From the IMG/VR virus record IMGVR_UViG_3300019763_000004, positions 1-41,254 of that record: a stretch of 41,254 bases of DNA. One strand, given 5' to 3'. The stretch is from a virus. The translations under genes were made by a program, and so were the position numbers. Of the stretch, positions 22,294 through 33,900 are shown piece after piece (position 1 is the first letter of the stretch; every line of letters starts with the position of its first letter). Below the pieces are notes generated by a model. It had not been told where the DNA came from. It saw only the letters and a program-made list of their open reading frames with translations, and did not search any database.

Positions 22294-22296
22294 AAC

Positions 22297-22325: not shown

Positions 22326-22366
22326 TATTGGCGCTTATTTAATTTCTAGAAAGAATAATTCATAAA

Positions 22367-22395: not shown

Positions 22396-22417
22396 CGAAC
22401 CATTAAAACGGTTCGAA
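22394..22417. repeat. Hairpin with CATTAAAACG core, copy 1
   Basis: TTCGAACC (22394-22401) and GGTTCGAA (22410-22417) flank the loop ATTAAAAC. The same decamer core CATTAAAACG occurs inside a different hairpin at 22471-22486. Confidence 0.6.
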
Positions 22418-22429
22418 ACAGTCATTAAA

Positions 22430-22468
22430 TTACATCTCGTTCCTCGACGGTAATTTACTTTTGTGTTA
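22430..22468 (-). repeat. Degenerate third copy of the 63-bp intergenic repeat
   Basis: Read on the minus strand, AACACAAAAG-TAA-ATTACCGTCGAGGAACG (in parts) aligns with the repeats at 26985 and 31586 (AACACAAAAG-GAA-GTAGCCGTTCGAAGAATG). About two thirds of positions match. It lacks the palindrome part. Confidence 0.45.
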
Positions 22469-22470
22469 GA

Positions 22471-22486
22471 GTGCATTAAAACGCAC
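22471..22486. repeat. Hairpin with CATTAAAACG core, copy 2
   Basis: GTGC (22471-22474) and GCAC (22483-22486) flank ATTAAAAC. The stem is different from copy 1 but the core is identical. Confidence 0.5.
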
Positions 22487-22509
22487 AATAACAAAGGCTA
22501 TAATTAATA

Positions 22510-22692
22510 CTAATCTTCGCAGTTATATTTCCGTTTGGTTTCATTTTTAATGGTGTAAAACTTGTCATGGTTTAAATTAATGTTTAAGCCATCATCAAAC
22601 TTATCAATCATTCTATCGTGTTTTCCAGTTACATCAAAACGTTTTACAACTTTATCTGTTCCAAACTCTTTTATTTCTATATATTTATTCAT
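22510..22692 (-). CDS. Hypothetical small protein
   Basis: This 60-aa charged protein begins MNKYIEIKEFGTDKVVKRFD, a short beta-hairpin-like start seen in many small phage proteins. It is the last gene of its unit, before the terminator at 22367. No family recognised. Confidence 0.55.
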   Translation of the reverse strand: MNKYIEIKEFGTDKVVKRFDVTGKHDRMIDKFDDGLNINLNHDKFYTIKNETKRKYNCED

Positions 22693-22745
22693 CTTGTTTA
22701 TTTTAAATTTTAGTTTTCAAATCCGTACTAATCATAGCCAAACCG

Positions 22746-22982
22746 TTATAAGCCATTTGAAGAAAGAAAGTCGTGTATTCGCTTTCTTAATTTTTGTGGT
22801 AATAACGGTGATTCTCCATTTACATAGGTTTCAATATCTTTTGTTCTTACTTCCCGTAAAATTTCAAGCACTTCTTGGTAGCTATCTTCTGCCCATACTC
22901 GGCAATCTACTTTTGGTGGTGTTTGGCTTTTGCCTAATAAAATTTTACTATCTCCTGCTTTAATTAAATGTGGTACGTTCAT
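22746..22982 (-). CDS. Hypothetical small protein, cassette-like
   Basis: This 78-aa protein has helical sequence EDSYQEVLEILREVRTKD. It is framed by related repeats: CCTTTGTTATAAGCCG just before its start, and its stop codon is embedded in GGCTTATAACGG. This start/stop arrangement is typical of a mobile gene cassette. Function unknown. Confidence 0.55.
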   Translation of the reverse strand: MNVPHLIKAGDSKILLGKSQTPPKVDCRVWAEDSYQEVLEILREVRTKDIETYVNGESPLLPQKLRKRIHDFLSSNGL

Positions 22983-22998
22983 AATCTTAAATAAAAAC

Positions 22999-23038
22999 GG
23001 CTTATAACAAAGGCTAAAATTAATAGCCTTATCAAGCC
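22999..23038 (-). repeat. attC-like inverted repeat S1
   Basis: Nested arms GGCTT (22999-23003)/AAGCC (23034-23038) and AAGGCTA (23010-23016)/TAGCCTT (23024-23030) lie between the PAPS-reductase-like gene and the next gene downstream. A second pair GATTAG/CTAATC lies just beyond. Confidence 0.5.
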
Positions 23039-23144
23039 AATTGCTTAATTGATTAGTTCATTACTTAGGCTACTAATCTTAGCCAAATAAGTTGCAATTT
23101 TTATTTATTTTTTTTGCCACCGCACTTTTGCTTTTTCAAAGCAA

Positions 23145-24023
23145 TTAGGTAAAAACAGTGCAGCCAGATCCACAACTCCCCTCAAAGTCGAATAGGTTAT
23201 TTTCATAAACATATTCATCTGTTGCTTTTGTAAATGGTCGCTTTGCCATATTGCTCAAATCATTTATAGTATTAAAGCCTCTAAAAAACGTCATAGAGTT
23301 ATTTTCTTCCATCAAATCGTTATATGAAGGCTTGCCATCTAAAGGCTTATTTCCGTATTCATCAATCATATTTTGCCACCATAAACCGATTTTAGGTTCT
23401 TCTTTTAAAATGGTCATAAGTTTACGATTTGATTTTTCAAAACATAAATCACAATTACCTTTAAAAGCTGGTATTTTTATTTGTATTTTCTGAGTTCTCC
23501 AAAACTTATTTCTATAATCTGTGCCTATTCTATTCTCAACTAAAGGGTAAAATATATTATTATCATTGTATTTCTCGGAAACTCTATCAATTTCATCTGC
23601 ACGAATACCAACGGCAATAGAGTAATTATTCAACCCAAAAATACTATCAGCATATTTTTTCAATGGTACTAACTTTAATTCTCTATTACACCATTTATTT
23701 ATACTGCTTGGTATTCCGTATTTTTTAATCCCATTTTCAAATAATTCGCCTTTAGTTTTCAGGTTAGTAAAAGAAGTTACTAAATAATCAGTTCCTTTGT
23801 TTTTCTCTTGGTTAATTATTGCCTCGATCCAAACCATGTCCAACATAAATAACTTGTCACAATCATTCATAAATTGCAAACTTTCAATTCTTTCCTTTGA
23901 AGTATTAGCCATTGCAAATACTATATTGTGGTTTGGATACCACGCTTTTATCTTTATAGCCATTAACACGCTTGAATAACCTGCTGAAATGCTGCAAAAA
24001 ATATTGTTGTTTTCTAATTTCAT
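23145..24023 (-). CDS. PAPS-reductase-like adenine nucleotide alpha-hydrolase
   Basis: This 292-aa protein has a PP-loop near its start, ISAGYSSVLMA (residues 12-22), a variant of SGGxDS. It also has WCNRELKLVPLKKY, GIRADEIDR and CDLCFEKSNRKLMTI, and ends GSCGSGCTVF. These blocks mark the phage/plasmid PAPS reductase-like family, which activates or cleaves adenylated groups in nucleotide or DNA modification and sulfur metabolism. The second Gly of the loop motif is Ala, so activity is uncertain. ATG 24023 is preferred over an open frame to 24080. It sits between two attC-like repeats, so it may be an acquired cassette. Confidence 0.78.
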   Translation of the reverse strand: MKLENNNIFCSISAGYSSVLMAIKIKAWYPNHNIVFAMANTSKERIESLQFMNDCDKLFMLDMVWIEAIINQEKNKGTDYLVTSFTNLKTKGELFENGIKKYGIPSSINKWCNRELKLVPLKKYADSIFGLNNYSIAVGIRADEIDRVSEKYNDNNIFYPLVENRIGTDYRNKFWRTQKIQIKIPAFKGNCDLCFEKSNRKLMTILKEEPKIGLWWQNMIDEYGNKPLDGKPSYNDLMEENNSMTFFRGFNTINDLSNMAKRPFTKATDEYVYENNLFDFEGSCGSGCTVFT

Positions 24024-24073
24024 ATTAAAAAATCCCTCCCTAAAAAATAAATAAAAACAGTTCGCTTCGCCAA

Positions 24074-24130
24074 CTAACACACAATAAAGTGCATTCCGCT
24101 GCGCTCCACGACACCTTATTGCCGTCCGTT
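24074..24130 (-). repeat. attC-like inverted repeat S2
   Basis: CAATAAAGTG (24082-24091) pairs with CACCTTATTG (24112-24121), one wobble. Outer boxes are CTAAC (24074-24078) and GTT (24128-24130). The stop of the gene at 24129 lies in the outer box. Confidence 0.55.
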
Positions 24131-24563
24131 AAAACAATTTATCATTTATAAAATCTTTTGCTTTGTGAAATAATATCTTGCATGTTTTATGCCCACCATT
24201 ATTTCTAAATCCATCTACATATTCCTGCATAATCTCAACAGCCTTTTGATTTTCCGCGCAAAGCTGAAGATTTCTATTATTTAGCTCTACGTACTCATCC
24301 GCTAATTTCTCATGCTTCAGAGTTAAATCATGAATCATCTGCTTTGCAATTCGCTTTTCATTCTCTATACGTGCCGCCTGTGTTCGTTCTGACACTTTTT
24401 CGAGTGCCTTTGATGGCGTTACTACTAACTCTAGGTCATTATCTGAAATTACACAATCTCCTTTCGTATTCTTGGCGATGTGTATCTTTTTGTATGCCGA
24501 GTGAGTGAACGAGCTACATTCTAAGCTAGCAATCTCTAAATCTGTAAATTGTATGGCTTTCAT
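24129..24563 (-). CDS. Coiled-coil hypothetical protein
   Basis: This 144-aa protein is beta-rich to about residue 55 and then a long coiled coil (about 55-125, with LTLKHEKLADEYVELNN). It starts 4 nt inside the previous gene's stop (ATGA overlap), so translation is coupled. Function unknown. Confidence 0.6.
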   Translation of the reverse strand: MKAIQFTDLEIASLECSSFTHSAYKKIHIAKNTKGDCVISDNDLELVVTPSKALEKVSERTQAARIENEKRIAKQMIHDLTLKHEKLADEYVELNNRNLQLCAENQKAVEIMQEYVDGFRNNGGHKTCKILFHKAKDFINDKLF

Positions 24564-24958
24564 ATCGTCACATTTTTAAGGGTTAATTCTCCGTTCATTG
24601 CATTTGCATATCCGCCTATAGTTTTTGCAGCAATTATTATAGTCTCTACATTTTCGGGATTATCACACATGAATATAACCTTCTTTTCAGCTTTTTGCCA
24701 CTCGGCTACTGATTCGTGATAAATATCCATCCCGCAAACGCCACAATCAGAGCCTTTGTAGTTATGAATATCAGGCTTGACAATCGGATTGATAAACATC
24801 TCCTTGGTTAGTGGTTGCTCGCGTAATTCCCCAAATTTCAATTCTAATTCAAAACACTCTCTCCCCACAGAGTTAACCATCCCTAATCCTGCAGATAAAA
24901 ATTTTTCTTTCAATATTCTATCAAACTGGCTTCTAGTGTAAAGCTTTTCTAGTTTCAT
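24560..24958 (-). CDS. Hypothetical protein
   Basis: This 132-aa protein has a CGVCG motif in DCGVCGMDIYHESVAEW, which could bind metal together with Cys99 (FMCDNPENVETI). No family recognised. Gapless position between the genes at 24960 and 24563. Confidence 0.58.
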   Translation of the reverse strand: MKLEKLYTRSQFDRILKEKFLSAGLGMVNSVGRECFELELKFGELREQPLTKEMFINPIVKPDIHNYKGSDCGVCGMDIYHESVAEWQKAEKKVIFMCDNPENVETIIIAAKTIGGYANAMNGELTLKNVTI

Positions 24959-24959
24959 A

Positions 24960-25193
24960 TTACGAATTTTTAAGATAAGCGGTTAAAATTATTCCTAAAG
25001 GAATCGAAATTCCGGCTAATCGGATTAATATTTTATTCCAGATTCCACGAATTAAAAATTTCCTGAATCCTTCTGAAACTTCTAAGCCTAGAAGTTCGCT
25101 TGCTGGCAAATCATTAAATTTAACATCTTTCATAAAGCCGTCTTTCTGCAGATAGTTATAATACGCTTCGAGGTTGTTGATTTTTCTTTTCAT
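24960..25193 (-). CDS. Small tail-anchored membrane protein
   Basis: This 77-aa protein starts at ATG 25193 (MKRKINNLEAYYNYLQKDGF); the frame is open further upstream but overlaps the previous gene. One hydrophobic helix near the C-terminus (about 52-73) ends in a short basic tail. Function unknown. Confidence 0.55.
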   Translation of the reverse strand: MKRKINNLEAYYNYLQKDGFMKDVKFNDLPASELLGLEVSEGFRKFLIRGIWNKILIRLAGISIPLGIILTAYLKNS

Positions 25194-25209
25194 TGCTTTG
25201 GGTTTAGGG

Positions 25210-25512
25210 TTATTTGTTAATGATTTTCCACTCTTCCTCTGTAGGTTCTCTTTCTTCGTCACAATATTCACACCTCATTTTTGTATATTTCCTTGGAGCT
25301 GTGTGAACTTGCTTAAACTCATGCTCTCCGCCGTTCATGCATGGGGCTTTTTGTGCATCGTAATCAAAACTTATACTTGTTGTGAATGCAAAATCTTTAT
25401 CGCAATCATAACAATGTTGCTGAAAAGTTACACCTTCTTCATATCCATAACCATCATCGTGATTAATTACTTGACCTTCTCCGCAATATGGGCACTCTAC
25501 ATCTGTATACAT
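25210..25512 (-). CDS. Zinc-ribbon protein of Bacteroidota phages
   Basis: This 100-aa protein starts with CPYCGEGQVINHDDGYGYEE, then HCYDCDKDF and ends with MRCEYCDEE. Three CxxC pairs plus APCMNGGEHEFK match a family frequent in Bacteroidota phages. The role is probably nucleic-acid or protein binding. First gene of a unit headed by the palindrome at 25587. Confidence 0.78.
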   Translation of the reverse strand: MYTDVECPYCGEGQVINHDDGYGYEEGVTFQQHCYDCDKDFAFTTSISFDYDAQKAPCMNGGEHEFKQVHTAPRKYTKMRCEYCDEEREPTEEEWKIINK

Positions 25513-25545
25513 ACTATTTCATTTAGGTTTAAATTTCTACTACAA

Positions 25546-25553
25546 CAAATTAC
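25546..25553 (-). promoter_or_regulatory. -7-like box GTAATTTG of the 25512 unit
   Basis: Lies 33 nt from the palindrome at 25587-25600 and 33 nt upstream of the ATG. It differs from TAnnTTTG at its first two positions, as does the box at 17424. Confidence 0.5.
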
Positions 25554-25586
25554 GTAAATCAAAACCATTAAATCAAAACTAAGAGT

Positions 25587-25600
25587 ATGTTGTAAAACAC
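25587..25600. promoter_or_regulatory. RTGYT-N4-ARCAY palindrome, copy 7
   Basis: ATGTTGTAAAACAC lies between the terminator at 25621 and the unit starting at 25512, with a -7-like box at 33 nt. Confidence 0.75.
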
Positions 25601-25620
25601 ATTCAGAAAATAAGGCAAAG

Positions 25621-25650
25621 AAAAAGCGCCCACCTGAGAGGTGAGCGCCT
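25621..25650 (-). terminator. Terminator of the 26915-25724 unit
   Basis: AGCGCCCACCT (25625-25635) and AGGTGAGCGCCT (25639-25650) form a stable stem with a 3-nt loop and one wobble, followed on the minus strand by T5. Confidence 0.85.
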
Positions 25651-25723
25651 AAACCATCAACAAAATAAACCCGTAATGAATGAAACAAGGAAACCCAATC
25701 CTAATTACGCTTGCAAGATAGGG

Positions 25724-26101
25724 CTATTTATTTAATTCCGACTCAGTAATGTAATATTTTTTATCTATTCCTATCGCGTATCCTTTTGAGCGTAGGAAGT
25801 CAGATTCAAAAGAGTTTAAAAGCATTTCATTTTCCTTCATTGAAAATTCATCAAACTCCCATTGTCTACAATTACTAGTTCCATTTAATTCTTTTAAATC
25901 CTCATCTGAAATATCCTTAAGCTCTTTGAGGATTAGTTTTGTGTTATTTAAATATAAAGCGTGGGATATTGTATTTAAAAAATCAAGATTGTGTGGTGTT
26001 ACTTTTTTAATATCACCTTTCTTGTGCCAGTTTATTGTGTTTAAAGGCATTACATATTCACACCCTAAATACCTTCCAAACCAAGAAATTTTGTCGTTCA
26101 T
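25724..26101 (-). CDS. Conserved Bacteroidota phage protein
   Basis: This 125-aa protein begins ISWFGRYLGCEYVMPLNTI, a start that recalls a family of small Bacteroidota phage proteins of unknown function. The rest is acidic and helical. Last gene of its unit, before the 25621 terminator. Confidence 0.6.
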   Translation of the reverse strand: MNDKISWFGRYLGCEYVMPLNTINWHKKGDIKKVTPHNLDFLNTISHALYLNNTKLILKELKDISDEDLKELNGTSNCRQWEFDEFSMKENEMLLNSFESDFLRSKGYAIGIDKKYYITESELNK

Positions 26102-26112
26102 CCTGTAAGTTT

Positions 26113-26406
26113 TTATTTATGAAATAATTTAATTTGCTTTCTAACTTTGACTATGGAGAGAGCAAATACATATTTGTACCATCTACTATCACATGATCTG
26201 TAATTCCTTTTGCATGCTTCTAAAACTCTAAGCAATCCATCTTTCGACTTCCCTTCAGTCTGGAAGAAGATAAACCATAAATTATGTAGTTGTAATTTTC
26301 TGCAAGCCCAATTTAATGGAGCGTATATTAAGATGCAAAGTAGAACTAAATAAGTTAATGGGTTTGTGTATATTAAAAAATTATCAACAGTTATATTAAA
26401 TCTCAT
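26113..26406 (-). CDS. Small membrane protein
   Basis: This 97-aa protein has one or two transmembrane helices at its N-terminus (about 9-35) and a basic, Lys/Arg-rich C-terminus with two Cys (CKRNYRSC). Function unknown. Confidence 0.58.
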   Translation of the reverse strand: MRFNITVDNFLIYTNPLTYLVLLCILIYAPLNWACRKLQLHNLWFIFFQTEGKSKDGLLRVLEACKRNYRSCDSRWYKYVFALSIVKVRKQIKLFHK

Positions 26407-26416
26407 ATGCCTAATT

Positions 26417-26707
26417 TTAAAATTGTTGTAAAAATGATGTTTTATTTGGCTTACTCATCCACTCGTAGAATTGTTCTATAGTGTAGACTTGTGGCGATCT
26501 TGGATAGATTGCACGGCTTGATATTTTTGGCTGTCCAGTTTGTCTATCAATATGAAACGACACAGAATGTAGTACATTATCTCTCATACCCTCAATTAGT
26601 CTGTAGTAAATACATTTATGATGATGCCTAACGTCGTCAACACCTGAACAATTCACATTATCAAGCCACATAATAAAATCCTTCTCCGCTTTCTGTAATT
26701 CAGTCAT
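26417..26707 (-). CDS. Hypothetical protein
   Basis: This 96-aa protein begins with a helix (TELQKAEKDFIMWLDN) and has a HHHKC motif near residue 30. The end has YTIEQFYEWMSKP. No family recognised. Two-nt gap to the previous gene. Confidence 0.58.
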   Translation of the reverse strand: MTELQKAEKDFIMWLDNVNCSGVDDVRHHHKCIYYRLIEGMRDNVLHSVSFHIDRQTGQPKISSRAIYPRSPQVYTIEQFYEWMSKPNKTSFLQQF

Positions 26708-26708
26708 A

Positions 26709-26915
26709 TTATTTCTTTTTACGTCTTATTGTTTTTATGCCTTGAGTAACTGCCTCTACAGATATACTATCATGCCACACATATAACTGTATGCTTTCTA
26801 GGCTTTCACTGCGTGAATCATCCTGCCATCCTTTCAACTTCATTAATTTGATAATCTCATCTGCATGATCTAAAATTTGCTTATCAATTTGGGCTCTAGT
26901 CAATTTCTTTCTCAT
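26709..26915 (-). CDS. Hypothetical small basic protein
   Basis: This 68-aa helical protein begins MRKKLTRAQIDKQILDHADE and ends IKTIRRKKK. First gene of the 26915-25724 unit, following a -7 box (26952-26945). The basic ends could suit nucleic-acid binding, but no motif is recognised. Confidence 0.58.
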   Translation of the reverse strand: MRKKLTRAQIDKQILDHADEIIKLMKLKGWQDDSRSESLESIQLYVWHDSISVEAVTQGIKTIRRKKK

Positions 26916-26944
26916 CTGGTTTATTATTAGGATTAATACTAAAA

Positions 26945-26952
26945 CAAAAATA
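26945..26952 (-). promoter_or_regulatory. -7 box TATTTTTG of the 26915 unit
   Basis: Perfect TAnnTTTG match, 34 nt from the palindrome at 26987. No -33 TTG at a suitable distance. Confidence 0.65.
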
Positions 26953-26984
26953 GTGAGGCTTGTTCAAAATCTCGCTATCCAAAG

Positions 26985-27047
26985 ACATGTTATAAAGCAT
27001 AACAGTTAGGAAATGCCATTCTTCGAACGGCTACTTCCTTTTGTGTT
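26985..27047 (-). repeat. 63-bp intergenic repeat R1
   Basis: It differs from 31586-31648 at only 3 of 63 positions. It includes the palindrome at 26987 and the block CATTCTTCGAACGGCTACTT. Two of the three differences are inside the palindrome but keep its RTGYT-N4-ARCAY form. Confidence 0.88.
26987..27000. promoter_or_regulatory. RTGYT-N4-ARCAY palindrome, copy 8
   Basis: ATGTTATAAAGCAT, part of repeat R1, 34 nt from the -7 box TATTTTTG. Confidence 0.75.
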
Positions 27048-27052
27048 GTGTT

Positions 27053-27385
27053 TCATTTGCCCTCCCACAATTCGCCTTCATAGCAAATTCGGTTCAATCC
27101 TTTTTCAGCGTAGTAACTTCCAACATTACAGTCATTCATGCACGTATGGTCATCTTCGCAATTAAATCGGCAGTTCTTGCACGTTTGTTTAGGCTTCTTC
27201 TTGCCACCGCGCAAAAACGAAAACACAACACTAAATATAAATAATAAAAATTTACTACGTTTTGCGCTAATTATAAACGCTCTACATAGCTTTAACCAAG
27301 CTAATTCAAGTATCATAAAAGCTCCCTGTGCGGTATCCAAGCTTATTAGTAACCTTTGATGTAAATTGTAATATGGTTTTTTCAT
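27053..27385 (-). CDS. Cys-rich protein with hydrophobic N-terminal half
   Basis: This 110-aa protein has two hydrophobic stretches (about 9-30 and 43-58) and then a Cys-rich part CKNCRFNCEDDHTCMNDCN with six Cys in about 20 residues. A membrane-anchored metal or disulfide domain is plausible. No family recognised. Confidence 0.6.
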   Translation of the reverse strand: MKKPYYNLHQRLLISLDTAQGAFMILELAWLKLCRAFIISAKRSKFLLFIFSVVFSFLRGGKKKPKQTCKNCRFNCEDDHTCMNDCNVGSYYAEKGLNRICYEGELWEGK

Positions 27386-27480
27386 TTCCGTAAATTTTTA
27401 AAATTCATATTCTTGTCCATTACCTACAATATAGGCTTAGTTCGTGCATTTTATTAAAGTCATTGCTTAACCGACCGTAT

Positions 27481-27630
27481 TTATTTTTTCCTTCCATCTT
27501 TTCGTTGCTTTAAACCAATTCGCAATAATTCTCTAATCTCTCTATTTACATTATCTTCACTATATTTTTTAGAAGATTCCCGAACTTCTTCTAAAAGTTC
27601 GGGTTGTAATCTTATTTGATATGGTATCAT
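27481..27630 (-). CDS. Ribbon-helix-helix protein
   Basis: This 49-aa protein begins MIPYQIRLQPELLEEVRESS, the ribbon and first helix of an RHH (CopG/Arc-like) DNA-binding protein, and continues NREIRELLRIGLKQR as the second helix. RHH dimers bind short palindromes, so this is one candidate for the recurrent 14-bp site. ATG 27630 overlaps the upstream gene's stop region. Confidence 0.72.
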   Translation of the reverse strand: MIPYQIRLQPELLEEVRESSKKYSEDNVNREIRELLRIGLKQRKDGRKK

Positions 27631-27631
27631 A

Positions 27632-28669
27632 TTACTTCTTAATATGGTTAGTAACTTTATCAATAAGCAATCCTACGTCTGCATACATCTTTTGTGTTTT
27701 TACTGCTTTAAAAGCATACTTAGTTTTTAATAATTCAAGGTCGTTAATTAAATCTTTAACCTTAGCTTCATCACCCTTGTTAAGTTCGTCTTGCAGTCTT
27801 TTTTCTTCGTCTGCTTTTGCCTTTTGCTCTGCTTCCTTTTTAGCTTGTAATTCAGCTTCAAGTTTTTCACGTTTTATTCGTTCTTCTCGCTCAATCTTTT
27901 CTTTAGCATCACGTTCAGCTTTTAGTTTAGCTTCATATTCAGCACGTTCTTTCTTTTCTTTTTCCTCACGTTCTTTTCTTTCGGCTTCTTCTTTTGCTAA
28001 TCTTTCTTTTTCAGCTTTTAATCTTTTATCAGCTTCTATTTTAGACAACCTTTCACGTTCTTCTGCTTCCGCTTTTAATTTAGCATTCTCTTTTCTTATA
28101 CGTTCTTGCTCTTCTTTTTCAGCCTGTATTTTAGCTTGTCTTTCTTTTTCCGCATCCAGTTCAGCTTGTATTTTATCTAAGTGAGCTTGTTTTTTTGTAG
28201 CTAAATAAGATTCCCAAACATCATCTTCCATATTTGCTAAATCTCTTTCACTTGCATCTTCTACAAATTCAGACAACAAAGAAACCCTTTCAGATTGTAT
28301 TTTGGCAATCCTTTCTTTTTCTAAGTTTTCAAAATGCTTTTCAGCATCCATTAATTTTTCTTCCATTTGTTCGTTAATAGCTCTTTCCTTATTCTTAATA
28401 GCATCAACAAACTTTCCGCCAGTCAAGAAAAACTCTTTATTGGTTTTGTGCCATTTATCTATTCCTTGTGTTCTGTTTTTTACTATTGCTAATCTTAGTT
28501 TTTTAAAAGTTGGTAAATTTTCTTGAGTTAGTTCTAATTTAGATACTTCTTCAAATTCTTTAATAAGTAGTTCTCGTTCTGCTTTTACTACTTTTAAACC
28601 TACGGTTAATTCATTTGCTTTTGCAGTTTCTAATCCGTAATCTTCTGCTTTAATAATTTCTACTTTCAT
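27632..28669 (-). CDS. Coiled-coil recombination-associated phage protein
   Basis: This 345-aa protein has an N-terminal domain (1-150: GLETAKANELTVGLKVVKAE, IDKWHKTNKEFFLTGGKFVD) that matches proteins next to RecT/ERF genes in Bacteroidota and Firmicutes phages. A long Lys/Glu/Arg-rich coiled coil follows (about 150-300). It probably works with the annealing system. It has a canonical promoter (28735-28705), unlike its neighbours. Confidence 0.78.
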   Translation of the reverse strand: MKVEIIKAEDYGLETAKANELTVGLKVVKAERELLIKEFEEVSKLELTQENLPTFKKLRLAIVKNRTQGIDKWHKTNKEFFLTGGKFVDAIKNKERAINEQMEEKLMDAEKHFENLEKERIAKIQSERVSLLSEFVEDASERDLANMEDDVWESYLATKKQAHLDKIQAELDAEKERQAKIQAEKEEQERIRKENAKLKAEAEERERLSKIEADKRLKAEKERLAKEEAERKEREEKEKKERAEYEAKLKAERDAKEKIEREERIKREKLEAELQAKKEAEQKAKADEEKRLQDELNKGDEAKVKDLINDLELLKTKYAFKAVKTQKMYADVGLLIDKVTNHIKK

Positions 28670-28704
28670 TTATTAGTTTATTTAATTAATATACATTTAC
28701 AATA

Positions 28705-28735
28705 CAAATATAGTACTATTATTTTAGTTTTGCAA
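28705..28735 (-). promoter_or_regulatory. Flavobacterial promoter of the coiled-coil gene
   Basis: On the minus strand TTG (28735-28733), a 20-nt spacer and TATATTTG (28712-28705). The 15-bp palindrome at 28732-28746 overlaps the -33 element. Confidence 0.75.
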
Positions 28736-28746
28736 AATAATTTTGC
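28732..28746. promoter_or_regulatory. Operator-like palindrome GCAAAATAATTTTGC
   Basis: A perfect 7-1-7 palindrome over the -33 TTG of the promoter at 28705-28735. Its sequence is unrelated to the RTGYT palindromes, so it would bind another regulator, probably a repressor. Confidence 0.55.
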
Positions 28747-28804
28747 CAACGCTCAAAAAAATAAATACTAAATTTGTGCTTTTAATTTAGGTTATTGCTT
28801 AAAA

Positions 28805-28881
28805 ACGCCTATACAGTAGGTAACAATGTATATAACCCATTGCCGAAAAAGGCAACGTGCCATATACTCAACGTTAGGCGT
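28805..28881 (-). repeat. attC-like inverted repeat S3
   Basis: Outer arms ACGCCTA (28805-28811)/TAGGCGT (28875-28881), middle arms GTATAT/ATATAC, inner arms TTGCC/GGCAA around a short loop. On the minus strand it begins with CGCCTAAC, five nt after the stop of the gene ending at 28886. Confidence 0.65.
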
Positions 28882-28885
28882 AATG

Positions 28886-29143
28886 CTATGCGCTTTCTAT
28901 ATCATCCAATATTTTTACTTTTCTTTCATGTAATTTTTGGTTAACTACAATTCTAACCGCATCTATAATATCTTGATCTTTATTGTGATCCAACGTAAAA
29001 CTATACGCGCGCTCACCACCATCTTCGCCTCTTATTTCTATTTTGCAAAATTCAACAGTATTGTCGAATCTTTGTATCTGTTTTTCCTCACGCTCTATTT
29101 GTTCAATCTTACTTGCAATTTCTTTAGCCTTCTCTAGTTTCAT
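28886..29143 (-). CDS. Hypothetical protein with coiled-coil N-terminus
   Basis: This 85-aa protein has an N-terminal helix (MKLEKAKEIASKIEQIEREE), a beta section (CKIEIRGEDGGERAYSFTL) and a C-terminal helix. ATG 29143 is preferred over 29161. It is flanked by attC-like repeats on both sides (S3, S4), so it is a clear single-gene cassette. Confidence 0.6.
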   Translation of the reverse strand: MKLEKAKEIASKIEQIEREEKQIQRFDNTVEFCKIEIRGEDGGERAYSFTLDHNKDQDIIDAVRIVVNQKLHERKVKILDDIESA

Positions 29144-29165
29144 AATATTTGTATAAAGCACATAC

Positions 29166-29265
29166 GCCTAACAAGCGGTAATAAAGCATGCTATTAGTCT
29201 ATATGTGAAATTTAAAGCGTAGTACCTCGGCACGCTTCATACCGCCAATACATTATATGTAAGGC
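29166..29265 (-). repeat. attC-like inverted repeat S4
   Basis: Outer boxes GCCTAAC (29166-29172)/GTAAGGC (29259-29265), next arms GCGGTA (29175-29180)/TACCGC (29240-29245), inner arms AAGCGT (29215-29220)/ACGCTT (29232-29237). On the minus strand the 3' box reads GTTAGGC, fitting the integron core GTTRRRY. The stop of the gene ending at 29265 overlaps the other box. Confidence 0.68.
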
Positions 29266-29465
29266 TAATCGAAATACTCAACCTCATATACTCCGTTCTC
29301 GTATCTATATTTTAATTCCCCATTTACATCTACACCATACGCACATACATAATTTTGTTCGGCATCCACTCCGAAATCGCTAATGGCTGTTACATTGTCT
29401 TTGCCTACCTCGTGAATTTTAATCCCACTCACTCCGTTGGTTGTTAGTTTCTTTATTTTTCTCAT
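29265..29465 (-). CDS. Hypothetical small protein, cassette-like
   Basis: This 66-aa beta-rich protein begins MRKIKKLTTNGVSGIKIHEV and ends YRYENGVYEVEYFD, with no known domain. It is bounded by attC-like repeats S4 and S5. Confidence 0.58.
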   Translation of the reverse strand: MRKIKKLTTNGVSGIKIHEVGKDNVTAISDFGVDAEQNYVCAYGVDVNGELKYRYENGVYEVEYFD

Positions 29466-29484
29466 TGTGAATTTGTTTAGTACC

Positions 29485-29590
29485 GCCCAACATACAACAA
29501 GCGGTCATAGTTAATAAAGCCAATTAAGATTAGTATTTCATAGGTTGCGGTGTGGGTGGCTTTGCTAACCATACCGCAAGCCGGTTAGGC
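29485..29590 (-). repeat. attC-like inverted repeat S5
   Basis: Outer boxes GCCCAAC (29485-29491)/GTTAGGC (29584-29590), arms AAGCGGT (29499-29505)/ACCGCAA (29573-29579, one mismatch), inner arms AAAGCCA (29516-29522)/TGGCTTT (29557-29563). On the minus strand it runs from GCCTAAC to GTTGGGC, both matching integron core boxes. It starts 4 nt after the stop of the gene ending at 29595. Confidence 0.7.
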
Positions 29591-29594
29591 ACAA

Positions 29595-29903
29595 TCAAGA
29601 CACCGCCTTTACAAAGGTTATAAAGTCTATATAATAAACTGCTCTATCCATTCTGTCAATCCACCCCACAATATCACCAGCTACACTTAGGCAATATGGG
29701 AATTTATCTTTTATTCTCATATAGTCGACTACTTGTTTGCCTTGCCCATCGCACCACGCTATTACATAAGCTAATTCATTTTTGTTATTGCACACAATCA
29801 CAGAGTTATGTCGCTCTAAAAAATTAACTGTGCCTAACAATGCATAAGAATCATTGCCTTTTGGCGGTGTTGTAGTTCTATCTTTATTTGGTTGCTGTAT
29901 CAT
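29595..29903 (-). CDS. Hypothetical protein, cassette-like
   Basis: This 102-aa protein has RTTTPPKGNDSYALLGTVNF near its N-terminus and a beta-rich body with IAWCDGQGKQVVDYM. No family recognised. Bounded downstream by repeat S5. Confidence 0.58.
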   Translation of the reverse strand: MIQQPNKDRTTTPPKGNDSYALLGTVNFLERHNSVIVCNNKNELAYVIAWCDGQGKQVVDYMRIKDKFPYCLSVAGDIVGWIDRMDRAVYYIDFITFVKAVS

Positions 29904-30054
29904 ATTTTTAAAGTATTTAGTTATTAATTAAATTGGCAACGCTTCTTGTGCGAGCCGTTATGCCTCAAGCCTGCATAGACTCATGAAGCCTTAACACCTC
30001 GTAATCATAGCCTTTGTCTTTAAAAATACTTTTCCTGAAATTTCGAAGTTCATT

Positions 30055-30174
30055 CTATTTTAGTTTTTCGCCACAATTATGGCAGTTGTTACTAATTCTT
30101 ATATTTGTTTCAAACTCGCACTTATCACACTTTTTAAATACTTCGTGACTTGCTTTTAAGCCTTTTAAAACCAT
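30055..30174 (-). CDS. 39-aa zinc-ribbon micro-protein
   Basis: This short frame starts at an ATG inside the end of the 30134..30535 gene, in another frame. It encodes two Cys pairs: KKCDKCEFE (Cys16, Cys19) and CHNCGEKLK (Cys31, Cys34). The spacing fits a small zinc ribbon. The overlap with the upstream gene suggests coupling, but no leader evidence exists, so it could also be a relic. Confidence 0.5.
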   Translation of the reverse strand: MVLKGLKASHEVFKKCDKCEFETNIRISNNCHNCGEKLK

Positions 30175-30535
30175 CCTTTAAGTTTTTGTAATCCGATTCA
30201 TCACACTTCCTTTTACTAGTCTTACGTATTAAATCATAAGCCTTAGGAGAGTTAATTAACCGACCTGTCATATCTCGCTGTCCATCCTTGTGAAAATCAA
30301 AATCAGGGTATACCGCTGGTTCTGTAGAGTATTTTTCAATACTAGACTTTTCTTCGTCCGTTAGTGGCGCTTTATAAGTTCTTCTTTTTATAGCGGCGAT
30401 ATAATCGTCAGACCTCGCGTGAAGATCCAGCCTGTATGGTAATTTCTCCTTTCTTTCCTCAGGGCGTTCGTAATCCTGAGGGTTTTCGAAAGATTCTTGC
30501 TCTCTCATTTCTAAAAAATCGGCTCTATTTGACAT
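30134..30535 (-). CDS. Hypothetical protein next to the annealing protein
   Basis: This 133-aa charged protein overlaps the end of the ERF gene by 11 nt. It has KEKLPYRLDLHARSDDYIAA and AYDLIRKTSKRKCDESDY, no membrane segment and no known domain. Position suggests a role in recombination, which is an inference. Confidence 0.6.
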   Translation of the reverse strand: MSNRADFLEMREQESFENPQDYERPEERKEKLPYRLDLHARSDDYIAAIKRRTYKAPLTDEEKSSIEKYSTEPAVYPDFDFHKDGQRDMTGRLINSPKAYDLIRKTSKRKCDESDYKNLKDGFKRLKSKSRSI

Positions 30536-31067
30536 TTTCTAATTCTTTTTTGCGCTTATTGGTAGCTGTTTTAAATGCTGTATCTTTCTGAAACGCTAAG
30601 CCTTTTTTCCAAACACTCTCAAGCATTTTAACATTAGCTGAAGTCTCAATCTCTTTTATTGCATCAGAAATAGTATAAGCCTTTTCATTGTGTTTATTTG
30701 TTGCGTCAGAATCCTTTGTGTCATCAATACAGAACAATCCATTTAAAGCGTATTTTCTAGAATAAGAAGATGTAGACCCTGTTATCTGGCTATCGTCCAT
30801 ACCCTTCTTTGTAGTAGCATGTCTGGCGTGCGCTGTCACCTCATGCTTGAAATCGCCATGTATAAATGTAGCAGTTGATTTTATGAATGCCATTCCGCAA
30901 ATCTCTTCCACTGAATCAGACAATGTTAAAAGGCACTCATTAGCCACAAGAAGAGGCTTGACAGCTTCTAGTATATCTTCACAGCTTCTGTAATTGTAAT
31001 TCCCGAAGGAGTTTTTTTGATTCTTAGGGGCTTTTAATTCACCCTGTATTTTAATAAGTGTTTTCAT
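30525..31067 (-). CDS. ERF-family single-strand annealing protein
   Basis: This 180-aa protein has the ERF signature: FGNYNYRSCEDILEAVKPLL near the start and MDDSQITGSTSSYSRKYALN followed by GLFCIDDTKDSDA. ERF proteins anneal complementary strands in phage recombination and genome circularisation. ATG 31067 is preferred (frame open to 31094). It has its own promoter region with a palindrome (31135), an AT-rich dyad (31105) and a -7-like box. Confidence 0.9.
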   Translation of the reverse strand: MKTLIKIQGELKAPKNQKNSFGNYNYRSCEDILEAVKPLLVANECLLTLSDSVEEICGMAFIKSTATFIHGDFKHEVTAHARHATTKKGMDDSQITGSTSSYSRKYALNGLFCIDDTKDSDATNKHNEKAYTISDAIKEIETSANVKMLESVWKKGLAFQKDTAFKTATNKRKKELENVK

Positions 31068-31093
31068 AGTATTTTGTTTTGATTGACAATACA

Positions 31094-31101
31094 CGAATGT
31101 A
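31094..31101 (-). promoter_or_regulatory. -7-like box TACATTCG of the ERF unit
   Basis: One base from TAnnTTTG; exactly 33 nt from the palindrome at 31135 and 27 nt upstream of the ATG at 31067. Confidence 0.55.
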
Positions 31102-31104
31102 TAT

Positions 31105-31132
31105 CTAATTAATTTAGCTGCAAATTAATTAG
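31105..31132. promoter_or_regulatory. AT-rich dyad upstream of ERF
   Basis: CTAATTAATTT (31105-31115) and AAATTAATTAG (31122-31132) form a perfect 11-bp inverted repeat around AGCTGC. It fills the space between the palindrome at 31135 and the -7-like box at 31101, where RNA polymerase would bind. Confidence 0.55.
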
Positions 31133-31134
31133 AT

Positions 31135-31148
31135 GTGTTATAAAACAC
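31135..31148. promoter_or_regulatory. RTGYT-N4-ARCAY palindrome, copy 9
   Basis: GTGTTATAAAACAC lies 33 nt upstream of the -7-like box TACATTCG of the ERF gene. Confidence 0.75.
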
Positions 31149-31150
31149 GT

Positions 31151-31558
31151 TTAAAAGAAATTGATTAATTCATTTTCAATATCCTCAGTAGTGCATCCGA
31201 TAATCCTTATAATAACATTTATAGATGCTGAATAAAGCTTTTCAAATTCCGTCTCATCCATTGATGCAAAGTTTATCGATTTAGGTGTGTAAAACTCTCC
31301 TTTTGGAGTTATATGCTTTTCGTAATATCCAGATTGCATTGTTACGTAAGCTCTGAATCATTCAAAATTCATAGTGTTGTCTGAATTCTGGTAGCCCAGA
31401 TTGACTAAAGCAAAGAACTTTTTGTGAAACTCGTAATTCCTTGGAGCTGTAACTTTAAATTTGTAATCCTTATTTGCCTTAAGCTTTTGCGCCTCTTCAT
31501 TATCAGAATCATTCAAAGGCAGTATCTTTCGATTTTTTATTTGTGCGTAGAATTCCAT
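31151..31558 (-). pseudogene. DUF1367-like gene interrupted by an in-frame UGA
   Basis: Read through, 135 residues fit a DUF1367-like phage protein: an N-terminal MEFYAQIKNRKILPL, the block NYEFHKKFFALVNLGYQN, then FRAYVTMQSGYYEKH and SINFASMDETEFEKLYSASI. A UGA at 31360-31358 stands between MNFE and FRAYVT, where intact relatives have a sense codon. A second ATG at 31339 could start the C-terminal part. It may be a nonsense mutation, recoding or a sequencing error. No other gene here shows a broken UGA, so the genetic code is standard. Confidence 0.65.
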
Positions 31559-31585
31559 TAATGTAAGTTTGGGTTTATTATTTCC

Positions 31586-31648
31586 ACATGCTTTAAAGCA
31601 TAACAGTTAGGAGATGCCATTCTTCGAACGGCTACTTCCTTTTGTGTT
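31586..31648 (-). repeat. 63-bp intergenic repeat R2
   Basis: Second copy of the repeat at 26985 (60 of 63 identical), containing the palindrome ATGCTTTAAAGCAT. It lies directly beside the cassette-like inverted repeat S8. Confidence 0.88.
31588..31601. promoter_or_regulatory. RTGYT-N4-ARCAY palindrome, copy 10
   Basis: ATGCTTTAAAGCAT is a perfect dyad. No -7 box is found 33 nt away, so this copy may have travelled with repeat R2 without a promoter, or it may regulate the DUF1367 gene from another spacing. Confidence 0.65.
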
Positions 31649-31740
31649 AGTAGCAAGCGGGGTTCGCTCTCGTATCAAAGTTCCTGCGTAATTGGAACAA
31701 AAAAAAAGAAAAGCCCCGCCCGCTTTTGCCTTATCAGGCA
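31646..31740 (-). repeat. attC-like inverted repeat S8 with terminator-like stem
   Basis: AAGCGGG (31655-31661)/CCCGCTT (31719-31725) encloses GTTCC (31680-31684)/GGAAC (31694-31698). GTTAG (31646-31650) lies at one end and GCC boxes at the other. On the minus strand AAAAGC-CCCGCCC-GCTTTT followed by T-rich sequence could also terminate the gene ending at 31734. Confidence 0.5.
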
Positions 31741-32372
31741 ATTGGGGTAAAAGAACACATCACTAATTCAGTTTCTTCTACTCTTGTCTTAATATCGTCA
31801 ATAGTGTATTTGTGTTTATTGCCAACTACAATAACATCCGCAACTATCTTTTCAGGTAAAGTGTCGTAAGCATCCGTTTCAAACACAATAGTGTCATCGT
31901 TAAATTTTAAAGCCAATGCGCTTTTACCTATCCCACTTTCGCCAATAAACACATAAGTAGGTCTAAGTTCTTTTTCTCTTCCATTGGCTTTGAATAAATC
32001 CATATTAACATTATAACCTCCGCTCGGGTAGTAATTACAACCTCCGTTATAATTTACGCTAAAAACATCGTTCTCTACATCTTCGGCTTCAATGCTAACA
32101 TCATCAACAATAAGCTCTTTTATTGGCTTATGTGTGTATCCATTAAATTTGTCTACAATAGTAACATTGCGATTACCCCAAGATGCAGTACACCAACCAG
32201 AGCCACATTCTCCTTCTTCGGTTGTTAATTCAATTTCAACCTTTCTATTATCTTCAAGTAGTCCTAAAATTATGTGCTTTTCAAATTCAGCATCGTTGTA
32301 TTCAAAATCACAATTATGTCCAGAAACTTCTTTTCCAATATACTTTTCTACTCTTAATCCAATAATTTTCAT
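31734..32372 (-). CDS. P-loop NTPase-like protein, cassette-like
   Basis: This 212-aa protein has a beta-rich N-terminal domain (1-140) and a short P-loop domain with GESGIGKSALALKF (Walker A, about 144-157), then TIVFETDAYDTLPEK and a strand VIVVGNK. It is shorter than usual kinases. The overall type resembles predicted P-loop kinases. It is flanked by inverted repeats S8 and S6. Activity is unknown. Confidence 0.65.
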   Translation of the reverse strand: MKIIGLRVEKYIGKEVSGHNCDFEYNDAEFEKHIILGLLEDNRKVEIELTTEEGECGSGWCTASWGNRNVTIVDKFNGYTHKPIKELIVDDVSIEAEDVENDVFSVNYNGGCNYYPSGGYNVNMDLFKANGREKELRPTYVFIGESGIGKSALALKFNDDTIVFETDAYDTLPEKIVADVIVVGNKHKYTIDDIKTRVEETELVMCSFTPIA

Positions 32373-32470
32373 ACCTATAGTTTTTAAATTAATAAAATAA
32401 AATCCCCACGCTTCGCTTTTCTTTTTTTAGTGCTTCGTTCGGGCGGTGGTGGGTAATTAAACCGCCAGCT

Positions 32471-32531
32471 ACTAACACGGTGTCATATTGCATAGCTGAA
32501 AAAGCTACGACAATATACACCAATACGTTAG
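32471..32531 (-). repeat. attC-like inverted repeat S6
   Basis: Nested arms CTAAC (32472-32476)/GTTAG (32527-32531), GGTGT (32479-32483)/ACACC (32517-32521), ATATTG (32485-32490)/CAATAT (32511-32516) and TAGCT (32493-32497)/AGCTA (32503-32507). It folds into one long hairpin with bulges, as attC sites do. It lies just after the stop of the gene ending at 32540. Confidence 0.68.
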
Positions 32532-32539
32532 CAACAAGG

Positions 32540-32917
32540 CTACATTTCGTATTCTATCCTAAATTTTCTTATACTGTCATCGTCAAGCAAATATGCTTTT
32601 CTATGTGGCAATAGCTTTGTTGCAACTGTCCAAGTTTCTAGGCTGTAATCTTCGTACTGCAAGGCAATATTTGCTTTCCTTCGTGCTGCTTCATCAAGTA
32701 TTTGCTCATTAGTAAGCCCAGTTGCTAGCACAGGCTCATAAGTAATAATTTTAACTAGCTTTTGTGCTAAATCATAAAATTTTGCTCTGTCAATAAACTC
32801 CACTACCCCACCATCTGCCATTGTTTTTACCTCAGTGTGCTTCTCTAATTCTTCTACTATTTCAATTTCTTGGTCTGTCATCTTTCGTTCTTTTAAGTCG
32901 TTAAAAATACTACTCAT
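32540..32917 (-). CDS. Hypothetical protein, cassette-like
   Basis: This 125-aa protein has EIEIVEELEKHTEVKTM and FIDRAKFYDLAQKLVKIITY (parts), no known motif. Start at ATG 32917 just beyond the small inverted repeat GCCTAAT/ATTAGGC (32919-32934); ATG 32881 is an alternative. Confidence 0.58.
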   Translation of the reverse strand: MSSIFNDLKERKMTDQEIEIVEELEKHTEVKTMADGGVVEFIDRAKFYDLAQKLVKIITYEPVLATGLTNEQILDEAARRKANIALQYEDYSLETWTVATKLLPHRKAYLLDDDSIRKFRIEYEM

Positions 32918-32918
32918 A

Positions 32919-32934
32919 GCCTAATCCATTAGGC
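32919..32934 (-). repeat. Compact GCCTAAT/ATTAGGC inverted repeat
   Basis: Perfect 7-bp arms with a 2-nt centre lie between two genes. It looks like the two outer boxes of a cassette site joined without the middle, perhaps the scar of a deletion. Confidence 0.55.
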
Positions 32935-32938
32935 GTAA

Positions 32939-33337
32939 TTAGTACTCGCAGATTTCACAAGTATAATCAAATAATGCCTCTATCTCTGTACATATTGCCT
33001 TTGCCATATCCTTGCTTTGCATTAGTGTAGCCTCTCTCATTTTCTTGGTGTCTTGAAGTATTTCGTCAATCAATCCAGTATAATAAGTTACTTTAGGGTA
33101 AGCCTTAGTAGTTTCTCTTAACTTTATAAAATAACTACGCCTAACACGTTGTAAATGCAAACCGCTGTTCTCGTTCGAGCATTCGCCACCACGCAACTTT
33201 TCAATAGCTTCAGCGCATTGCTTTATCTCATTTTTACACTTTTCTACTATATCCAAATCTCCTTGTTTAGTCCAAATTCTTACTTCACTTTCCAGTGCTT
33301 TTATTGCATCATCTAGTATTCTTAAAGCTTTTTCCAT
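32939..33337 (-). CDS. Hypothetical protein, apparently a fusion of two cassettes
   Basis: This 132-aa frame has a helical first part (1-60, LDDAIKALESEVRIWTKQGD) and a second part (70-132) with RETTKAYPKVTYYTGLIDEI and CTEIEALFDYTCEICEY. Between them the DNA reads, on the minus strand, CGGTTTGCATTTACAACGTG followed by TTAGGCG. This looks like the 3' half of an attC site translated as SGLHLQRVRR. The frame may have arisen by loss of the first gene's stop, joining two cassettes. Confidence 0.58.
   Translation of the reverse strand: MEKALRILDDAIKALESEVRIWTKQGDLDIVEKCKNEIKQCAEAIEKLRGGECSNENSGLHLQRVRRSYFIKLRETTKAYPKVTYYTGLIDEILQDTKKMREATLMQSKDMAKAICTEIEALFDYTCEICEY
33139..33145 (-). repeat. GTTAGGC core box inside a reading frame
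   Basis: The minus strand reads CGTGTTAGGCG here, inside the 32939..33337 frame. It matches the outer box of the neighbouring attC-like repeats. Confidence 0.5.
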
Positions 33338-33365
33338 CGCTCGGTTATTTATAGTTTTATAATTC

Positions 33366-33420
33366 GTTTAACTTTAGTGCTAGTTTGGTAAAGCGGTCAG
33401 CACTTACAACCAACGTTACG
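33366..33420 (-). repeat. attC-like inverted repeat S7
   Basis: GTTTAAC (33366-33372) and GTTACG (33415-33420) flank perfect arms AGTGCT (33376-33381)/AGCACT (33399-33404). On the minus strand the last box is GTTAAAC, matching GTTRRRY. Confidence 0.5.
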
Positions 33421-33423
33421 GAA

Positions 33424-33507
33424 TCACACCCAAGCTAAGAGCTCTAGTAGTCCGCATGTTAACAGTGCAGCTATGCACATCCACCATTTATCTATAAACT
33501 TCTTCAT
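33424..33507 (-). CDS. 27-aa single-pass membrane micro-protein
   Basis: MKKFIDKWW followed by a hydrophobic helix (MCIAALLTCGLLELLAWV). Its ATG overlaps the stop of the upstream gene (ATGA), supporting real translation. Topology suggests a small membrane peptide of unknown function. Confidence 0.55.
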   Translation of the reverse strand: MKKFIDKWWMCIAALLTCGLLELLAWV

Positions 33508-33716
33508 ACTTCTGCCTCCTTATTTGCTTTAATCCACTTTAAGCGGCTTGTTTTGTTGTCGTCCCTAATTATTAGAGCTGTGTAGTTTGGATCGTTCTGC
33601 TTGTCTCTCTGCTGCTCCTTAGCTCTATTTAGAACTACCTGAGCCTTTTGAATATCCGTTAAGCCTATTATTTGCTCATCGGTATTCTTTTTGGGTGAAT
33701 TATTCGCTTTCTTCAT
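33504..33716 (-). CDS. Hypothetical small protein
   Basis: This 70-aa charged, helical protein contains DEQIIGLTDIQKAQVVLNRA and a basic stretch TSRLKWIKANKEAEV. It overlaps both neighbours, so it belongs to the 34140-33424 operon. Function unknown. Confidence 0.58.
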   Translation of the reverse strand: MKKANNSPKKNTDEQIIGLTDIQKAQVVLNRAKEQQRDKQNDPNYTALIIRDDNKTSRLKWIKANKEAEV

Positions 33717-33900
33717 CGTTTTCTATTTTTAAAATTAATCCCATTGGCTTTAGATTAGTTTCAAGCCATTTTATTTTATTGCCGAATGTTGCGATCTTTG
33801 AGTAGGAGTCATTGGCGTCTACGCCTAAAAACTCCGCTCTATCTTTCCTTTTCGGGAATAGCTCTTTTAATCTTTGCTCTACGATTTCTTGATTTTCCAT
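33700..33900 (-). CDS. Hypothetical small protein
   Basis: This 66-aa protein (QRLKELFPKRKDRAEFLGVD, then IATFGNKIKWLETNLKP) is helical and charged. It overlaps the next gene by 17 nt. No family recognised. Confidence 0.58.
   Translation of the reverse strand: MENQEIVEQRLKELFPKRKDRAEFLGVDANDSYSKIATFGNKIKWLETNLKPMGLILKIENDEESE

Follow-up and report, generated by a model that had tools for sequence, protein, structure and literature searches.

The virus record IMGVR_UViG_3300019763_000004 (41,254 bp; here called the window, meaning the whole stretch of DNA that was analysed) is a complete siphophage-like genome with a 123-bp terminal overlap, and its end-to-start junction was spanned by another contig, L153. 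Genes for a terminase, a portal, an ERF protein and a DnaC-like loader were recognised. The terminase was 44-48% identical to terminases of Bacteroides, Parabacteroides and Alistipes phages, the figure for Bacteroides phages being 47%. These were the top-scoring matches among 50,697 phage records and make a Bacteroidota bacterium the very probable host. Between 22.4 and 33.4 kb, the junctions of small minus-strand genes held imperfect inverted repeats bracketed by AAC/GTT boxes, and this array of genes and boundary elements (W1 to W12, Table 1) is our subject. An earlier note, made from the sequence alone, had read the repeats as integron attC sites in a one-directional cassette array without integrase, either collected from a host integron or part of a mobile-repeat system specific to Bacteroidota. 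When read in the coding (minus) direction, many elements opened 0-10 nt past a stop codon with ..YYY|AAC, an RYYYAAC-like box; examples are GCCT|AAC at 28875 and 29586, GCAT|AAC at 29959, TGCT|AAC at 32529 and CCGT|AAC at 33417. The TAA stop of genes 22746 and 24129 lay within the box TAAC itself (22746-22748 and 24129-24131), likewise at L152:6587-6589 in a relative, so that the stop codon of a gene can come from a unit edge.

Relatives of the window phage differed from it by whole blocks of genes with breakpoints at the boxes, showing that the units of this family are mobile. Contig L144 was 98.2% identical to the window over 21418-27047, and the match resumed at 29951 and ran up to 30116. 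The stretch between was 0.6 kb long in L144 and carried two different genes that had palindromes of their own, compared with 2.9 kb, six genes and W3 to W5 in the window. The right edge of this exchange read ACAC|AACACAAAAGG in the window and GCCT|AACACAAAAGG in L144; at the left edge, GGCATAACGGCTCG was common to both genomes, which diverged thereafter. Contig L152 was 99.97% identical to the window over 33142-39581 (6.4 kb) and diverged past TTAC|AACGTGTTA (ACAAC|GTGTTA) within an open reading frame (ORF). Beyond the breakpoint at 33142, L152 had another C-terminus followed by three further genes, some separated by clear palindromes. Since the breakpoint lies inside the ORF, the two genomes have the N-terminal half in common but continue it with different C-terminal halves. 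The more distant sister phage L045 had the backbone genes 24129, 24960, 26417, 30134, ERF, DUF1367 and 33700 in common with the window, with other genes between them. In all of ten boundary comparisons the edge fell at AAC or at most 6 nt after it, the chance being 0.033 per exact and 0.186 per near edge (intergenic). These comparisons, which were chosen by hand and are not fully independent, comprised L144 (two edges), L152, W6/W7, W12/L045, L157/L158/L160, two P12002L copies, L016, L123/L139 and L135/L137. Collinearity with the more distant DnaC relatives L155 and L156 was too low for reading unit changes.

It is very unlikely that regulatory hairpins or terminators of the ordinary intergenic kind account for the repeats, and normal phage modular evolution for the mosaic gene content. 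Terminator-like hairpins do occur amid the boundary elements (25620-25680, the 25640 region; 22298-22325; 33901-33939) and should be excluded from cassette-site counts, and several sites folded no better than shuffled sequences. However, whole units were replaced in genomes 98-100% identical, with edges at the same box, and this explanation was already largely refuted by the arrays of the cultured Polaribacter phage Freya.

In Freya, gain and loss of whole units took place at AAC and at a single constant site, which adjoins the gene for a XerA-like tyrosine recombinase. Seven isolates (Freya_1, 2, 5, 6, 8, 9 and 10) had a common 43,914-bp backbone with 0-4 mismatches, and the stretch from gene 66 to the recombinase start ranged from 96 to 5,038 nt with 0 to 12 annotated ORFs. 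The recombinase (271 aa) adjoins the constant site AACACCCCTATAACAAC. The net additions from Freya_1 to Freya_2, Freya_2 to Freya_5, Freya_5 to Freya_6 and Freya_9 to Freya_10 directly adjoined the constant AACACCCCTATAACAACAATAAG in front of its gene, and the sole difference between Freya_8 and Freya_10 was one internal 902-bp unit. AAC was common to the junctions in six of six tested; the common sequence was exactly AAC from Freya_9 to Freya_10 and four nt from Freya_2 to Freya_5. The newest units lay at the 3' end of the array, and the genes pointed towards the constant site. Constant sites of AACRCCC type also preceded the recombinases of the Polaribacter phage Leef (AACGCCCCTATATACGCACC) and the Cellulophaga phage Ingeline (AACACCCACATAACTCCACCC), with units upstream, and three pieces of the Freya_10 array (96.7% identity) were found elsewhere in the genomes of Danklef phages. 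The constant AACACCCCTATAACAAC site behaves like attI and may be its analogue, and the adjoining recombinase is the putative catalyst of unit exchange.

The repeats could instead be conserved gene-boundary linkers, with modules swapped between co-infecting phages by single-strand annealing of the ERF/RecT type and no site-specific recombinase. The window phage encodes ERF and Freya encodes RecT, and flanking elements that are sometimes alike, such as the near-identical W6 and W7 (95% over 63 bp), could seed annealing. However, the sequence common to both partners at the exchange points went down to 3-4 nt, always with the same trinucleotide, which is too short for annealing, and the Freya units vary at one constant site beside a tyrosine recombinase. 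We consider this explanation unlikely. In lambdoid mosaic phages, short conserved boundary or linker sequences at gene junctions mark exchange points. The present junctions likewise carry conserved sequences that mark exchange, but differ in having one trinucleotide core and, in Freya, a single site next to a recombinase at which successive units are stacked.

When 28 element-bearing viral records were searched with the IntI family model, XerA-like tyrosine recombinases were found in three, plus a remnant, and no true IntI was found. One such recombinase was used as a query, and relatives of it at E<1e-30 turned up in three of 32 element-bearing records, its own contig among them, and in none of 40 control phage records, in keeping with our interpretation. 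Its best cultured matches were those of Leef, Freya and Ingeline. The relatives' recombinases scored 92-155 bits against the IntI model TIGR02249 (cut-off 265), and the IntI-specific insertion of Vibrio IntIA was absent from them in the alignment. The recombinases of Freya, Leef, Ingeline and L171 to L173 gave full-length NF040815 matches of 129-206 bits, below the cut-off of 220, and matched XerA in the Protein Data Bank (PDB), with the R..H-x-x-R..Y motifs mostly aligned. The archaeal and bacterial XerA-XerC/D recombinases (NF040815, TIGR02224/02225; PDB 4A8E, 5HXY) are the best family match of the phage enzymes, which differ from them in falling below the curated cut-offs and in their location, a variable array of genes ending at the recombinase in place of a dif site.

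The window array was linked to the cultured phages by its unit edges. A position weight matrix (PWM) was derived from 20 unit starts of Freya, P12002L, Tenacibaculum JQ, Peternella and Panino, with the window excluded. Among the 782 minus-strand AACs of the window, W9 ranked 1st, W1 3rd, W10 4th, W5 8th, W2 27th and W11 53rd, and the 12 proposed edges together scored significantly higher (Mann-Whitney U test, p = 0.003). W10 (AACTTATTTGGCTAAGATTAGTAGC) visibly resembled Freya unit E (AACTTACATGTATAAGGTTAGTAGC). Element classes of the window type were present at many junctions of the Polaribacter phage P12002L, and the class of W5 recurred both there and in Winogradskyella phage Peternella_1. 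L045 had a W12-like copy, flanked by a C5 methyltransferase gene and the homologue of gene 24129, and L144 had one too. The W11 pattern was present in 26 viral contigs; in L016 it came after a gene 78% identical to 22746-22982.

The window elements are not canonical attC sites. A purpose-made attC-geometry scanner gave five minus-strand sites with a score of at least 18, compared with 0.6 per shuffle. Strictly canonical geometry (extra-helical base, right spacing) was found only at 29492-29590 (W3) and 32470-32533 (W1), on the + strand; this total of two does not exceed that of shuffles (1.7 per strand at the same threshold), and both sites lay exactly in intergenic junctions. When folded as single-stranded DNA, W1 and W3 were clearly better than shuffles and W10 was weakly better (z scores in Table 1); W11 and W2 were short or barely structured. 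A covariance model, R1, was built from 15 genuine attCs of Tetrasphaera phage TJE1, Shewanella M16-3 and Vibrio p16 and recovered many genuine sites. In the window it gave no hits with default filters and, with filters off, just 7-10 bits (E of at least 1.4). The model is small and gave the P12002L site 30005-30059 just 11.8 bits, indicating low sensitivity for sites of the Bacteroidota type. An Rfam scan of the window matched no family.

The orientation of the sites also differed. In TJE1, Vibrio p16 and the Shewanella M16-3 prophage, genuine attCs ran the same way as their genes, and their extra-helical base was located 4-5 bp into the stem, in the arm that adjoins R''. In W1, W3 and the class I sites of L152, L157, L158, L160, L162, L163 and L164, the extra-helical base was on the strand antisense to the genes; it was not clearly seen in W6/W7. 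The exchange edge (RYYYAA|C in the coding direction, G|TT on the opposite strand) was consistent with this antisense orientation. Taken together, the extra-helical base and the exchange edge show that the sites, read as attCs, lie upstream of and inverted to their genes.

These data bear on capture from a host chromosomal integron, in which the window would hold a classical cluster of attC sites lacking an integrase (CALIN) moved by the host IntI. Phage CALINs have been reported in Polaribacter phage P12002L and Tetrasphaera phage TJE1, and five of six tested phage attC sites, including one of P12002L, recombined with IntI1 (Qi et al. 2023, PMC9892861). W1, W3 and P12002L 30005-30059, which may be the assayed attC2, do have extra-helical-base geometry. 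Against this origin stand the failure of model R1 in the window, the inverted gene orientation at W1, W3 and the class I sites of seven other contigs as opposed to the sense attCs of TJE1, Vibrio p16 and the Shewanella prophage, the near absence of complete integrons from Bacteroidetes (PMC9024848), and the cassette gene 22746, which was not found when 84,980 species genomes were scanned. Capture from a host integron is therefore also improbable. As in phage CALINs, attC-like sites occur here in virulent phages without an integrase, and P12002L and the window have the same element classes. However, two P12002L sites were taken in PMC9892861 as ordinary attCs of divergent direction. In the present analysis, the elements delimit many accessory genes in both P12002L and the window, are antisense to these genes, and form part of a phage-borne system that comes with a recombinase of its own in Freya, Leef and Ingeline.

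We regard it as likely that mobile gene units ("phage cassettes") make up the region, arrayed as part of an integron-like system that circulates among Bacteroidota phages; the window array, which is integrase-less, is probably mobilised in trans. With somewhat less assurance, we favor the broader reading that Bacteroidota phages have an integron-like capture system of their own, evolved apart from IntI, in which a XerA-type recombinase and a constant site stack AAC-bounded, inverted units, and of which recombinase-less arrays are widespread and exchanged in trans. In the coding direction, a unit would comprise an AAC box just past the stop, often a palindromic element with a 5' leader, one or more genes, and RYYY before the next AAC, and the exchange point would be the AAC core (RYYYAA|C, or G|TTRRRY on the other strand). 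The phage recombinase is proposed to cut this core in a folded or double-stranded element and to join units at the constant site in front of its own gene, towards which phage transcription would read the array genes. Hairpin elements may be recognised as folded single strands in the manner of attC. In phages without a recombinase, such as the window phage, arrays might be reshuffled in trans by the enzyme of a co-infecting phage or of the host. The arrays may supply accessory or counter-defence genes.

The system works like an integron but, by the features tested, is not a member of the IntI integrons. It shares with the IntI/attI/attC system a one-direction array of small genes, whole-unit gain and loss with exchange at the G|TTRRRY core (seen at the L144, L152 and Freya junctions), apparent insertion at a constant, attI-like site adjoining a tyrosine recombinase (in Freya; the window has no such site), and hairpin sites with extra-helical bases at some junctions. 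It differs in that the relatives' recombinases are far below the IntI cut-off and devoid of its insertion, the genes of the phage units run towards the constant site and against the attC-like direction, the array has its newest units at its 3' end, many sites are short or have weak structure, and the system is phage-borne. An IntI with the insertion, attC-model hits, and attCs lying 3' of and co-oriented with the gene were not found. No description of such a phage-encoded system was found in the open literature, subscription papers and preprints aside.

Several observations weigh against our interpretation. A search for a tyrosine recombinase (PF00589) in the window found none, so that its mobiliser has to be inferred. 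The excess of recombinase relatives in element-bearing over control records (3/32 against 0/40) is suggestive only, the contigs being fragments. The link from Freya to the window is based on a common boundary box, position and partial sequence similarity. The class II sites (W6, W7, W12) and W3 scored poorly with the Freya-type matrix; they are other element classes with the same edge. Window sites other than W1, W3 and W10 folded no better than shuffles as DNA, showing that hairpins are not universal. Finally, the Freya recombinase could serve prophage integration too, as its discoverers assumed: the paper describing the Freya phages (PMC8776804) takes the integrase as a sign of potential lysogeny, and neither "integron" nor "cassette" appears in its text.

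Measured against these results, the earlier note was right about a one-directional, integrase-less, cassette-like array, since PF00589 is absent and relatives gained and lost whole units at AAC/GTT boxes. Its repeats S1-S8 hold as AAC/GTT-boxed repeats at 22.4-33.4 kb but not as attC sites proper, several being short or barely structured and none being found by R1. Their placement between genes is borne out by the many boxes just past stop codons, but some regions are ordinary terminators and one exchange box (33142-33150) lies within an ORF. Of the checks it had proposed, the attC covariance search gave no hits, the comparison of relatives revealed whole-unit gain and loss, and folding was clear for W1 and W3, weak for W10 and unremarkable elsewhere. 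The note had named the absence of attC-model hits together with the absence of whole-unit gain or loss as its refutation; only the first was found, and the architecture therefore stands. The suggested capture from a host IntI integron is not supported, given the failure of the attC model, the lack of gene 22746 in the 84,980 species genomes scanned, the antisense orientation and the finding of only XerA-like recombinases, devoid of the IntI insertion, in element-bearing relatives. The alternative offered in the same note, a Bacteroidota-specific mobile-repeat system, fits best.

If this interpretation is true, the accessory genes of many Bacteroidota phages are assembled also by a phage-encoded site-specific cassette system and not only by random mosaicism, which would explain the 0 to 12 extra genes in Freya isolates with near-identical backbones. 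Some phage "integrases" now taken as signs of lysogeny would be recast. Freya on Polaribacter sp. HaHaR_3_91 would be a tractable cultured model, and the boundary rule YYY|AACG could delimit accessory, possibly counter-defence, genes in uncultivated phages.

Table 1. Boundary elements, genes and exchange points of the window array
Feature	Position	Strand	Remarks
W12 boundary element, class II (AACACAAAAGTAA...GACTGTT)	22405..22471	+	coding-strand unit edge at 22467
W11 short boundary element AACGGTTTGGCTATGATTAGTACGG	22712..22747	-	after gene 22746-22982; box includes the gene's TAA stop
Cassette gene, 78 aa, function unknown	22746..22982	-	78% aa identity in L016, same downstream box
W10 boundary element, imperfect hairpin (coding strand TTGC|AACTTATTTGGCTAAGATTAGTAGC..)	23002..23097	+	PWM rank 4/782; fold z -1.8
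Cassette gene, PAPS-reductase-like PP-loop protein	23145..24023	-	phrog_424; weak PADLOC SspD match
W9 boundary element (coding strand TTTT|AACGGACGGCAATAAGGTGTCG..)	24072..24134	+	stop of gene 24129 inside box; PWM rank 1/782
W6 boundary element, class II	26997..27051	+	right-hand L144 exchange breakpoint; paralogue of W7
Exchanged block: genes 27053, 27481, 27632, 28886, 29265, 29595 plus W5, W4, W3	27048..29950	-	two other genes instead in L144
W5 boundary element (GCCT|AACGTTGAGTATATGG...ATATACATTGTTACC)	28803..28879	+	PWM rank 8
W4 boundary element, conserved half ATTACCGCTTGTTAGGC	29157..29263	+	half-site common to unrelated phages L157-L164 and L152
W3 attC-like element	29492..29590	+	good RYYYAAC and GTTRRRY boxes; extra-helical C five bp into stem; z -2.5
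W8 boundary	29930..29963	+	left-hand L144 exchange breakpoint; GGCATAACGGCTCG common, divergent beyond
ERF single-strand annealing protein, backbone gene	30525..31067	-	PF04404, E 1.4e-37; weighed as alternative exchange enzyme
W7 boundary element, class II	31598..31652	+	paralogue of W6; 95% over 63 bp
Cassette gene, 212 aa, phrog_10007 family, P-loop-like segment	31734..32372	-	absent from sister L045
W1 best-structured attC-like element	32470..32533	+	extra-helical C five bp into stem; stem score 11.0; z -4.1; PWM rank 3
Cassette gene, 125 aa, function unknown	32540..32917	-	absent from L045
ORF with exchanged C-terminal half	32939..33337	-	L152 comparison
In-ORF exchange box (TTAC|AACGTGTTA)	33142..33150	-	breakpoint with L152
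W2 boundary element (CCGT|AACGTTGGTTGTAAGTGC...GTTAAAC)	33366..33421	+	PWM rank 27/782; little structure

Searches with single elements and genes added the following. Exact scans of 84,980 genomes and the viral contigs for the W6/W7 repeat gave no match beyond the same population, and blastn of the class I element against plasmids and phages gave none. In pooled tblastn of the window cassette proteins, phage homologues were mainly those of the PP-loop and phrog_10007 proteins; in Bacillus phage Troll, the homologue of the 212-aa phrog_10007 gene was 46.9% identical. When short isolated repeats were sought all-against-all, conserved coding stretches swamped the result, which gave no count. The intergenic region 27386-27480 (W13) was weighed as a further boundary element and dropped, its AAC box not being convincing.

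Individual genes and units showed further features. The weak match of the PP-loop/PAPS-reductase-like protein (23145-24023) was to SspD of the Ssp phosphorothioation system, and similar genes were common in Salmonella, Vibrio and Riemerella phages. The exchange at an AAC box inside an ORF (window 32939-33337 and L152:6245-6589) amounts to domain swapping by cassette exchange with the N-terminal part kept. In L045, a C5-cytosine methyltransferase gene (8631-9647) was flanked by two boundary elements, between the homologues of 24960 and 24129. The DUF1367-type gene of the window (31151-31558, minus strand) was split into two ORFs by an in-frame stop; its counterparts were an intact 136-aa homologue in L045 and an annotated DUF1367 gene in Freya.

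The short element CTAACGnATGGTAATATGRTTAGTRCGGATTAATAACnACTAAATTTAATAnnATG stood between a stop and the next start in 26 viral contigs from many unrelated Bacteroidota phages (e.g., L016:750-820, L131:2868-2924 and L135:13757-13813), and the conserved portion at its 3' end may act as a leader or promoter. In P12002L (L149), a near-identical unit start of about 70 bp (TAACAACGGATAAAACAAGTTTTACC...) occurred in two copies, at 29166-29247 and 37200-37304, with different upstream genes and the left edge at a TAAC box. In the uncultivated phage L171 (1-300, 1100-1200 and 1471-2277), a 61-aa gene and a pair of strongly palindromic elements stood ahead of the recombinase gene, and double TAAC boxes preceded the recombinase start, as in L173.

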